Positions 1,129 through 9,559 of a DNA stretch of 64,000 nucleotides are shown here, piece after piece. The notes beneath the pieces were generated by a model. It was not told the origin of the DNA and searched no databases. It saw nothing but the letters and a program-made list of their open reading frames with translations. The position numbers were made by a program, and so were the translations under genes. Source of the stretch: Artemia franciscana (lineage: Eukaryota; Arthropoda; Branchiopoda; Anostraca; Artemiidae); assembly GCF_032884065.1 (NCBI RefSeq), contig NC_088873.1:34731600-34795599 (forward strand), written 5' to 3'. Each line of letters starts with the position of its first letter. Within the stretch, counting starts at the first letter, position 1.

Positions 1129-1302
1129 TTTTGTCAGGGATTCGAGATCTGTATCAACAATTTCAAGGTGAACTGGACTCTTCTGTGGCAGCTCAAGGAA
1201 AAGACTATGGAGATATCCACTACATGCTGATAAAACTGCCTTATGGGAATGTATTACACCATTTCTAGTCCTGAATGTCACGTCACACTGGTTTTCGTCT
1301 GT
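1129..1302 (-). CDS. Double-BTB gene, exon 3 (N-terminal half of BTB 2)
   Basis: The exon has 58 codons after the acceptor TTGTTTCAG (phase 0), beginning TDENQCDVTFRTRNGVIHSH and continuing KAVLSACSGYLHSLFLELPQ. This is a canonical BTB core with DVTF, the HK.VL charged pocket region and SACS. It ends DTDLESLTK before the donor GTGAGT. The next exon, expected to encode a y.GEV-type strand, was not found in positions 1-1128, so the gene continues beyond the left edge. Confidence 0.8.
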
Positions 1303-7300: not shown

Positions 7301-9559
7301 ATATTATTATTGTACAAATACAATACCAATACATTGGTATCAGACCCCAGAAATCCATATCAGTTGGGCCCTAGTTATGATGTTGTTCACATTCAGCTTG
7401 AAACAAGGATTATTTCCAGTAACTGCAAATTATGTTCTAGTCTTCAGAAGGCATGAGGGGTGTCAGCCCCACATATATTAGTTTCCATTTTTTTAAGTTT
7501 TACTCAGATATTTGCTATAATTTCTGTGTGTTCTGGTTTTCATTTATTTATTGATGGCTATTTTTGGTAGGTTTAGGTTTGGAAAATTATTTGACTTTAT
7601 TTCAACTCATTTTGGTTGAATGTGGCTCTACTCCCAATATTCAAACTCAGTTACAAAATAAACTTCTACCCCCAAAGTACAAACTAATTGTTATACCAAC
7701 TCATTTATGCTTTTCTTCACATTGATTTTCAATACTGAGCTGTAGTCTGTGTGATTTTTGTTTAAATGTATGAATTTGTAAAAAAAAAAAAAAAAAAAAA
7801 AAAAAAAAAAAAAAAAAATAGTCATGCTATAATAGTTTTCATATATATACTGATCTCTCTCTCTCTCTGTAGGTCAGTAATGTAAACTCTTCTAAATTTA
7901 CCAATAACCTGGAAAGATGTAGCTGCAACATAATTTTAGGCTATTAACCTGCTTCTAAGTGTCATCTAGCCTACTACAAACTATTACAAATAGCCTAGGC
8001 CTAATGAAGAGCCTTCATTAGCTTAAATTGCATTCATTACCTATTAATACTAACAACTCACTGCAGCAAAAAGCTCATGAGGCCAACACTCCTCCTCTAT
8101 CCCTCTTTACACCCTCCCCAGATATTCCAATTTCCTTTCAATATTTATTTATGGCATCCTCCTATCCCAGATGAGGACAGCCTGCTTTTGTTTAGCCCTA
8201 GATGGTTCACCATAAAGGACAATCTTTGGCAAACTGTCATCCTTCTTCTGCAGAATGTGGCCTAGCCATCTCAGCCTTTCTTTTAATATAGGCCTAGAAA
8301 GTGGGATTGAACTAACAGCCTTCTGTTTGAAATATGGTCAGTCAGCAGGCGATTTCTCTAGGAAACATCTAGTAAATCTCTATCTGCTTTTCAGAGTGCC
8401 CATGCTCACTGTTGTCATTGTACCTTCCAATATTCTAATCTTAGTTTGCAGACTTATCTTCCTATTCTTCCAAACGTTTATTTTAATGTGAAAAAACTGT
8501 AAATTTTTCATTGTTCATATTTTTGACTTACAAATAAAGTGAACATATAAATTCATGCCTTTTTTTATGTTCTTTTTGAATGTAATAACTGCTTCTATTG
8601 CAAATTCAAATTTAAGCACTTTTTAACCTAACATAACTATAAATAGTTTTGCACTGAGAAAACATAGCATATTATTGTTTTGAAAATGACCAACAATACA
8701 TACTTTGATTTAAAATTTGGCATCAAGGAAGAAGAAAATAGCACAATATTGTAAAATTTATTTATCTAACTCAATCCTGGAAAATGAATGCTTGTGGATT
8801 AGCATATATAGCATTAAAAAAAGGATTTATAATGAAACAGTAGATTTGAAACCAATGTTTTAAAATTTGAGACCAATGTTGTAAGCTTTTTTTAAGCCTA
8901 AAAACTAGAAATAGCCTATTTTGTAATTTTCAAGAGCTCAAAAAGTGCTTAAATTTGAATTTGCAATAGAGGCAATTATTATAATTCTTAAGAACATAAG
9001 AAAAGGCATTGAATGGTATGTTCACCTTATCTGTAAGTTAAATATAGGCCTATGAACAGCATAAAATTTACCAAATAATACCCTGAGCCTTTGCTATTTT
9101 ACTTTTAACATCTTCGCTGCTCCCACCATTTTTACTAATAACATTACCAAGGTAAGCAAAGCTGGACACCAGATAAATCTTTTCATTACCCAATTTTACC
9201 TTTTTGTCTTCACTAATTCTTAGCCTTAATGAGCAATGTTTGCTATTTATTGCTTCAATTATTTGCTTGCAATCTGGATGAATTTAGTGTAAATCAAATT
9301 CATTTACTTATAAGAAAAAATCATTGTAATAAACTAATGCTAATAGCCTGATAACTACCTTCAGTGTAATTGATGTTTGACTGTTGAATGCTTGATCAGT
9401 CTTGAAACTACCTAGAACCCTTAGCACAAAGCTGTTTATTGCTACTGCACCATCATCACAAATTATTCTTATATTGGCAAATTGAGCATCATTAACAATT
9501 TCAGCAAGTTGTCCTTTGATGACTTCAAAATGTTCTTCCCAATGAACAGCGAAAGCCAT
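1129..9559 (-). CDS. Tandem double-BTB/POZ protein gene, 5' part (3 exons visible, 3' end outside window)
   Basis: Three exons, 9559-9359, 5314-5096 and 1302-1129, join in phase 0 at both junctions and give 198 codons of open frame. The first BTB spans about residues 1-120: an N-terminal HWEEH motif, a strand/helix half, then ACTGEV and the helix NLITAASFLDAKVIVDAL. A second BTB starts at about residue 125 with FQWKNHYVDMKNYLDKS, followed by CDVTF and SHKAVLSACSGYL. Both N-termini resemble the 'LRWNNHQ..L...F..LL' start of arthropod tramtrack/Lola/Broad-type BTB domains. Such domains mediate homo- and hetero-oligomerisation, usually in nuclear transcription factors. The second domain keeps the HKxVLSACS signature; the first has lost it. 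No zinc finger or other C-terminal domain is visible because the gene leaves the window. The exon joins are inferred from splice sites and phase, not from a transcript. Introns are about 4.0 and 3.8 kb and full of repeats. Confidence 0.8.
1496..1604. repeat. (AT)n microsatellite
   Basis: About 50 uninterrupted AT units, with a few A insertions at the right end, within intron 2 of the double-BTB gene. Apparent Ile-Tyr ORFs here are artefacts. Confidence 0.98.
1605..3060. other. Intronic sequence with G-rich dispersed repeat pieces
   Basis: No coding signal. Short G runs near 1960-1971, 2535-2550 and 3036-3046 sit in phrases of the type AATTTTCC-GGGGGG. That phrase also occurs near 11.2, 22.9, 40.5 and 42.3 kb, which marks a dispersed non-coding repeat. 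Confidence 0.4.
3127..3440. repeat. Foldback repeat, copy 1 (family of AACGAACAGAAATTACTCCG)
   Basis: The left arm is about 3130-3229 and the inverted right arm about 3318-3423, with about 90 bp between. The left arm runs AAAACTTAAAACAAATAG..., then GAGGGGGTTTGCTCCC, then CTCTTTACACTAAAGTT. The right arm reads back GAAGAGCGAAGTGTTGAGGA and TTCTGTTCGTTTTAAGTTTT. The spacer has ACTCCTGAAACACAAGGGTC. The same structure recurs at 11.9, 26.3, 51.1 and 63.9 kb. Confidence 0.8.
3445..5090. other. AT-rich intron, nothing recognised
   Basis: Intron 2 of the double-BTB gene. No exon with a BTB or other motif, and no structured repeat beyond low-complexity A/T, was found. Confidence 0.4.
5096..5314 (-). 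CDS. Double-BTB gene, exon 2 (C-terminal half of BTB 1, start of BTB 2)
   Basis: The exon has 73 codons between the acceptor TTTCTAG and the donor GTATGT, and is open throughout. It reads GSKLENVYNILRVACTGEV, which corresponds to the BTB segment L..ll.f.YTGEV, then the helices that close BTB 1 (NLITAASFLDAKVIVDAL). It ends with FQWKNHYVDMKNYLDKSM, which matches the W-N-H N-terminal helix of tramtrack-type BTB domains and so belongs to BTB 2. This bridging exon is the main evidence that both BTB halves are in one transcript. Confidence 0.75.
6565..6910. repeat. Diverged tandem duplication, about 165-bp unit
   Basis: AAAGGCCATTC.AAATTTGG near 6601 recurs as AAAGGCTATCTGAATTTTTA near 6753. GGCCCTGGACATCCTGGAGA near 6671 recurs as TGCCTTGAGTATCCAAGAGA near 6847. 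TTCTTCTGCTTCATCTTA near 6702 recurs as TTACTATTGCTTCATCATA near 6876. The two halves are old and contain no conserved frame. Confidence 0.55.
7780..7818. repeat. Poly(A) tract of 39 bases
   Basis: Uninterrupted A run in intron 1 of the double-BTB gene, followed about 35 bp later by a (CT)n run at 7855-7869. It could be the tail of an old retroposed sequence, but no body was recognised. Confidence 0.9.
8041..8480 (-). pseudogene. RTE-like LINE fragment (C-terminal part of RT protein)
   Basis: The minus strand reads LRWLGHILQKKDDSLPKIVL, then YGEPSRAKQKQ, the typical C-terminal block of RTE-type non-LTR retrotransposons. Weaker continuity upstream reaches about 8480. Stops and frameshifts are present. 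A parallel fragment lies at 41.03-41.29 kb. Confidence 0.7.
8508..9055. repeat. Inverted repeat / foldback element, about 115-bp arms
   Basis: The left arm (about 8510-8628) contains TTGCAAATTCAAATTTAAGC preceded by ATGCC-TTTT-TATGTTCTT. The right arm (about 8936-9055) is its reverse complement, with GCTTAAATTTGAATTTGCAA and AAGAACATAAGAAAAGGCAT. The spacer is about 310 bp and has no ORF. It lies between two RTE fragments in the first BTB intron. Confidence 0.75.
9070..9275 (-). pseudogene. RTE-like LINE fragment (RT thumb region)
   Basis: The minus strand reads SLRLRISEDKKVKLGNEKIY, then LVSSFAYLGNVISKNGGSSE and DVKSKIAKAQ. This is the segment after the YADD box of RTE reverse transcriptases (compare the copy at 32.5-34.4 kb). 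It is a fragment only, without the catalytic motif. Confidence 0.75.
9359..9559 (-). CDS. Double-BTB gene, coding exon 1 (N-terminal half of BTB 1)
   Basis: The exon has 67 codons starting MAFAVHWEEHFEVIKGQL. The ATG at 9559-9557 is the only in-frame start that places the BTB helix at the extreme N-terminus, as in tramtrack-type proteins. The exon ends at CTGAAG, followed by the donor GTAGTT. In this first domain the usual DVT strand reads ANIRI and the conserved HK.VL is replaced by INSFVL, so it is divergent. A possible arthropod initiator (TCAGTT, 9581-9576) lies just upstream of the ATG; a leader of only about 20 nt would be short. Confidence 0.75.

Follow-up and report, generated by a model that had tools for sequence, protein, structure and literature searches.

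The Artemia franciscana DNA analysed here, a stretch of 64,000 nucleotides (the window, C11:34731600-34795599, where C11, C254 and the like are scaffold and contig labels of this genome), carries the 5′ part of what we predict, with moderate confidence, to be a single protein-coding gene for at least three BTB domains arranged head to tail. These comprise a diverged BTB 1, a BTB 2 with a canonical core and a BTB 3, and the product would act as a multivalent BTB scaffold. An earlier note on the same DNA had proposed one protein with two tandem tramtrack-type BTBs. The tandem arrangement in one chain stands; the number does not, as a Pfam search (PF00651, cut-off 20.5 bits) with the 335 residues of the five joined exons matched BTB in three stretches at 109.8 bits (E = 9.9e-32).

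Exons 1–3 lie within the window, and the analysis reproduced their positions and strand as previously given, as well as the open frames, the GT-AG borders and the joining in phase 0. Each exon is an open frame bounded by AG and GT, with exon 1 beginning at its own ATG and ending at a GT, and together they encode 198 residues, in which Pfam BTB matches two stretches (E = 1.5e-16). As the earlier note had it, BTB 1 finishes and BTB 2 begins within exon 2 alone, in a single unbroken frame. The linker between the two domains measures about 7–13 residues, a length that varies with the point chosen as the end of the last BTB 1 helix. Likewise, the HK.VLSACS signature is absent from BTB 1 (NSFVLRVLGS) and present in BTB 2 (HSHKAVLSACS).

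Extension to the left of position 1, proposed in the earlier note as a way to find the rest of BTB 2 and any zinc finger, revealed two further exons. Exon 4 starts with VLDFCHNGEVKV, which completes BTB 2, and finishes with FFSDIIISAGGKYVK, where BTB 3 begins, whereas exon 5 runs from AHRVILSSFSPKFGEIF to YIYKGRAAIE within BTB 3. No zinc finger of the C2H2 pattern (C-x2-4-C-x12-H-x3-5-H) occurs in open frames of at least 20 amino acids over 254 kb. Exons 3 and 4 join in phase 0 and exons 4 and 5 in phase 1, and exon 5 ends in phase 1. Exons 2 and 4 are thus both bridging exons, each closing one BTB and opening the one that follows, so that two neighbouring genes offer no explanation. The third domain lacks about 20 of the last profile positions.

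Pfam scores of the single domains are 22.0 bits for BTB 1 (E = 2e-4), 59.5 bits for BTB 2 (4.4e-16) and 35.5 bits for BTB 3 (1.2e-8). At the level of single exons, exon 3 matches with E = 3e-10, exon 2 reaches 14.7 bits, under the cut-off, and exon 1 gives no match. We also built a profile from 11 further BTBs found in this genome, with the three studied domains excluded. The five exons tile this profile in order, with gaps and overlaps almost nil: exon 1 covers positions 4–71, exon 2 covers 76–112 and then 4–23, exon 3 covers 27–80, exon 4 covers 83–111 and then 18–45, and exon 5 covers 42–94. Some single stretches in the tiling are weak, namely the second of exon 2 (2.7 bits) and the two of exon 4 (1.5 and 5.8 bits). 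A profile including the three domains gave the same tiling, with scores that are higher by construction. After joining, BTB 1 scores 46.9 bits over profile positions 5–112, BTB 2 as completed by exon 4 scores 68.5 bits over 5–111, and BTB 3 scores 50.2 bits over 18–93. None of 1000 shuffles scored as high in any of the three cases, the best reaching 10.8 bits for BTB 1 and 13.2 bits for BTB 2.

Table 1. Features of the predicted gene, in window positions unless given on C11
Feature	Position	Strand	Description
Pre-ATG stretch with TCAGTT hexamer	9560..9583	-	present in both copies; possible transcription start
Exon 1	9359..9559	-	MAFAVHW... to ...SITLK; N-terminal two-thirds of BTB 1; donor gtagtt, phase 0
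Exon 2 (bridging)	5096..5314	-	end of BTB 1 (GSKLENV...VIVDAL), short linker, start of BTB 2 (ALRFQWKNH...DKSM)
Exon 2 borders	5096..5314	-	acceptor tttctag, donor gtatgt, phases 0/0
Exon 3	1129..1302	-	core of BTB 2 (TDENQCDVTF...HKAVLSACS...ESLTK); acceptor tttcag, donor gtgagt, phases 0/0
Exon 4	C11:34729733-34729478	-	end of BTB 2 and start of BTB 3; outside the window
Exon 5	C11:34724509-34724354	-	core of BTB 3; outside the window

The TCAGTT hexamer before the exon 1 ATG resembles the arthropod initiator consensus. Intron 1 contains, on the minus strand, open fragments at window positions 9068-9283 and 8149-8337 (YLGNVISKNGG... and RLRWLGHILQKKDD...), presumably related to the C-terminal part of a non-LTR (long terminal repeat) retrotransposon reverse transcriptase. 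Intron 2, between exons 2 and 3, includes a long TA microsatellite (window 1486-1605).

A search of the whole genome (1,270,528,402 bases in 6,468 contigs) found just two near-identical places each for exons 1–3, for exon 4 and for the BTB 3 stretch. The second copy of exons 1–3 lies on contig C254 (89,604 bases), which is collinear with the window; leftwards from window position 17454 its blocks are 91.8–96.2% identical, and the contig ends 1.4 kb past exon 3. Exons 4 and 5 have their second copy on C11 itself, 52–55 kb further left, in blocks that are collinear with the first copy over tens of kilobases. C254 ends near the start of this left copy. The overlap between the two is about 100 bases long, with 95% identity, but in its first 135 bases the left copy agrees with the first copy at every base instead. 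The simplest reading is that one alternative haplotype has been split between C254 and C11, that is, an assembly duplication. On the scaffold itself, C11 ~34,641,600-34,676,400 against 34,690,400-34,731,400 forms a long collinear duplication with C254 beside it, in which the listed blocks over 400 bp are 88–98% identical, rows under 88% having been filtered out. This duplication probably represents an alternative haplotype that escaped purging and was built into the scaffold; the published account of the Artemia franciscana assembly describes the use of a haplotig purge (PMC11492255). In view of the imperfect overlap between C254 and the left copy, a true segmental duplication is a possible alternative.

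The recurrence of exons 4 and 5 with tens of kilobases around them, collinear and 52–55 kb to the left, is a possible assembly fault and raises the question of whether the chain itself is an artefact, in which pieces of different single-BTB genes were wrongly joined. We regard this as highly improbable, given that both bridging exons are single and too short to hide a misjoin, and that they are present in two diverged copies with collinear flanking introns.

Comparison of the two copies also bears on whether the frame is maintained. All splice sites of exons 1–5 are preserved in the second copy, exon 2 is identical there at 219 of 219 nucleotides, and exons 2–5 contain neither a frameshift nor a stop in either copy. 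Over exons 2–5, 8 of 805 sites differ between the copies, against 411 of 9,922 aligned sites in the introns and the 155 nucleotides after exon 5 (15,954 sites in all, the remainder unaligned), corresponding to an odds ratio of 0.23 (Fisher p = 3.8e-7). The 328 codons compared, which omit the disturbed first 21 nucleotides of exon 1, hold 8 silent and 3 replacement changes, at about 22% of sites being silent (binomial P = 4.6e-4). By this comparison of sequences, the tandem frame is under constraint.

Several findings weigh against the prediction of one gene with three BTBs, the first of which concerns exon 4. On its own it has no Pfam match, and 2 of 1000 shuffles equal its profile score. We accepted it because of its position, phase and conservation, together with the scores of the joined BTB 2 and BTB 3. 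If exons 4 and 5, both weak by themselves, belonged instead to a separate downstream transcript or to an alternative 3′ end, the main product would consist of BTB 1 and BTB 2 only. This arrangement appears improbable, as exon 4 supplies BTB 2 with its missing end, at the right profile position and in the right phase, ahead of the BTB 3 start; without it BTB 2 is incomplete, and with it the domain reaches the coverage given above.

The second finding concerns the two ends of the gene. In C254 a net 11-nucleotide deletion has removed the ATG of exon 1, and the rest of this exon 1 copy contains no other in-frame ATG. Unless translation starts elsewhere, the product of the C254 allele would be devoid of BTB 1, or there would be no product at all. 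At the other end, neither the end of BTB 3 nor a stop codon was recognised in the scans left of exon 5. These losses would be expected of a decaying or allele-specific gene that was functional until recently and is now losing its 5′ end (the start codon, in one haplotype) and its 3′ end, with the remainder of BTB 3 deleted or displaced by repeats; diverged tandem repeats indeed make up the stretch after exon 5, where several copies of a unit of about 560 bp follow directly (L012 ~350-2760). Set against decay are the open frames of exons 2–5 and the splice sites kept in both copies, the excess of silent over replacement changes, and an exon mismatch rate that is a quarter of the intron rate. 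We consider decay the less likely alternative and retain the prediction of a single gene with at least three BTBs.

The 3′ end was sought in several ways. Scans with our own profile took in open frames of at least 20 amino acids over 154 kb and 254 kb; no candidate stood out in them, and across 190 kb to the left no further BTB turned up. A profile of the C-terminal third (about 48 kb), codon scoring of AG-GT frames (the same 48 kb) and conservation between haplotypes (the first 30 kb) yielded no outstanding candidate for the end of BTB 3; these methods have low power, as the known exon 5 receives a codon score of 0.2 and 27 of the 45 listed frames are identical between the copies. One match, at -14378 to -14557 and thus about 14.4 kb beyond the left edge of the window, was ruled out by a one-base indel that separates the copies. 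Read-through of exon 5 was also ruled out, the copies diverging within about 30 nucleotides of the donor and having stops at different places.

Tramtrack-type BTBs are marked by an FxLRWN motif at the N-terminal strand, and the BTB is usually N-terminal in these proteins (PMC11426971). In the alignment, none of the three domains has the full motif: BTB 1 reads FAVHWE, with F and W kept, BTB 2 reads LRFQWK, with W kept, and BTB 3 reads PIVHVI, with none. We therefore file them as probably tramtrack-derived rather than tramtrack-type. A profile of 10 tramtrack-like BTBs nevertheless outscored one of 7 other BTBs for BTB 1 (46 versus 7 bits), BTB 2 (68 versus 50) and BTB 3 (52 versus 40), where the split was made by us from the N-terminal motif, the tramtrack-like set is the more uniform and an eighth other BTB (L060) was dropped. 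In a tree of 21 rows, BTB 1 and BTB 2 clustered with 9 of the 10 tramtrack-like rows, 11 rows in all (support 88/90), and BTB 3 was unplaced; the tree is weakly resolved, good support being confined to 2 of the 18 inner branches and the long branches warning of error, and L026, a tramtrack-like BTB with a broken end, was dropped from it. The label tramtrack-type in the earlier note thus finds some support as to ancestry, through the profile scores of all three domains and the tree group of the first two, and fails for strict membership.

Identities among the three domains are low, at 19% between BTB 1 and BTB 2, 10% between BTB 1 and BTB 3, and 12% between BTB 2 and BTB 3, and the intron positions on the profile differ among them, indicating that the duplication is not recent. 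To the single BTBs of the genome, BTB 1 is 12–26% identical, BTB 2 21–32% and BTB 3 16–22%. In the alignment, BTB 1 further retains the pattern of the B3 strand, the one through which tramtrack-type BTBs form hexamers, with SITLK where its relatives have IIILK. The array may have originated from an old tandem duplication of a tramtrack-type BTB, or from a fusion.

In BTB dimers, the partners are arranged so that the N-terminus of one is close to the C-terminus of its mate, and the charged pocket combines an Asp where B1 begins with a Lys or Arg where A1 begins (PMC9468604). According to the alignment, the pocket is kept in BTB 2 (CDV / SHK) and in BTB 3 (SDI / AHR) and lost in BTB 1, which has Asn and Ser at the two places. 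The division of labour suggested in the earlier note, in which BTB 2 would oligomerise and BTB 1 would serve as a diverged partner, fits these residues. Since BTB 1 has lost the pocket residues and the linker is so short, the two probably pack together within the chain as an intramolecular pseudo-dimer of BTB 1 and BTB 2. BTB 3 retains its pocket and would remain available for pairing, whether with another chain or with other BTB proteins of the tramtrack type. The protein might then be a natural single-chain BTB oligomer, pairing within the chain, with BTB 1 permanently engaged as pseudo-dimer partner so as to cap or nucleate assemblies of tramtrack-type BTBs, possibly without a DNA-binding domain, and so regulates the many tramtrack-type factors of the genome; we put this forward as a speculative and rather doubtful extension. 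A PDB sequence search with the joined 198 residues gave as top matches 4u2m and 4u2n, both fused BTB chains, and BTB 3 alone matched myoneurin best. A fused Miz1-BCL6 pair has been crystallised as a forced heterodimer; against an intramolecular pairing of this kind, the same source reports that in live cells the separate Miz1 and BCL6 BTBs did not form a heterodimer, and describes the physiological significance as unclear (PMC9468604).

None of the titles and abstract openings that our open-access literature searches listed describes an arthropod protein with three tandem BTBs, or a three-BTB chain of this kind, and the phrase ‘two BTB’ is absent from the main text of PMC11426971. Tramtrack-type BTBs are reported to form hexamers of three dimers and mix widely (PMC11426971). 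If the prediction is true, three tramtrack-derived BTBs per chain would provide a natural test of how much of the hexamer assembly fits into one protein, and of whether a degenerate BTB can be a dedicated internal partner; Artemia franciscana is a laboratory animal that permits such tests.

Other multi-BTB genes were sought among 272 first-look candidates, 150 of which were scored, and the list was read by eye. The BTB pair C1:5290809/5291196 was ruled out, being two incomplete single-BTB stretches in separate frames, and a same-strand pair on C19 (35980053 and 35983785) is a candidate only. Single-BTB open frames cluster at C2:60.1-61.0 Mb, C15:38.1-38.3 Mb and C63:2.76-2.86 Mb, and most of the 13 single-BTB frames that were read carry an LKWNN-like tramtrack motif. 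The many frames in these clusters suggest that BTBs of the tramtrack type have expanded in the lineage of this crustacean.

The predicted protein shares features with several known systems. With the tramtrack (TTK)-type factors Lola, Tramtrack, Bric-a-brac and Mod(mdg4) it has in common an arthropod host, the fit of all three domains to the tramtrack-like profile, and a BTB 1 that opens the gene model at its N-terminus and retains the motif's F and W; it differs in having three BTBs per chain, no full FxLRWN and, over the 254 kb scanned, no C2H2 pattern. Some BTB-ankyrin proteins also have more than one BTB per chain, two in their case. IBTK and ABTB belong to this class. Fission yeast Btb3p is a further BTB-ankyrin protein with two BTBs (PMC1257465). 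By comparison, the five exons described here contain no ankyrin match and their BTBs are tramtrack-like. RhoBTB resembles our protein in its directly adjoining tandem long-form BTBs, which, in the wording of PMC1257465, ‘may form an intramolecular dimer’; here there are three BTBs, and BTB 1 is without a large insert. Neither a Rho GTPase nor an ankyrin match was present in the 335 residues, in which BTB is the sole domain above the cut-off. The engineered fusions Miz1-BCL6 and Miz1-NAC1 (4u2m and 4u2n) likewise carry two different BTBs per chain. Those chains are man-made, whereas the linker in the Artemia gene is natural and the pairing across it is predicted.

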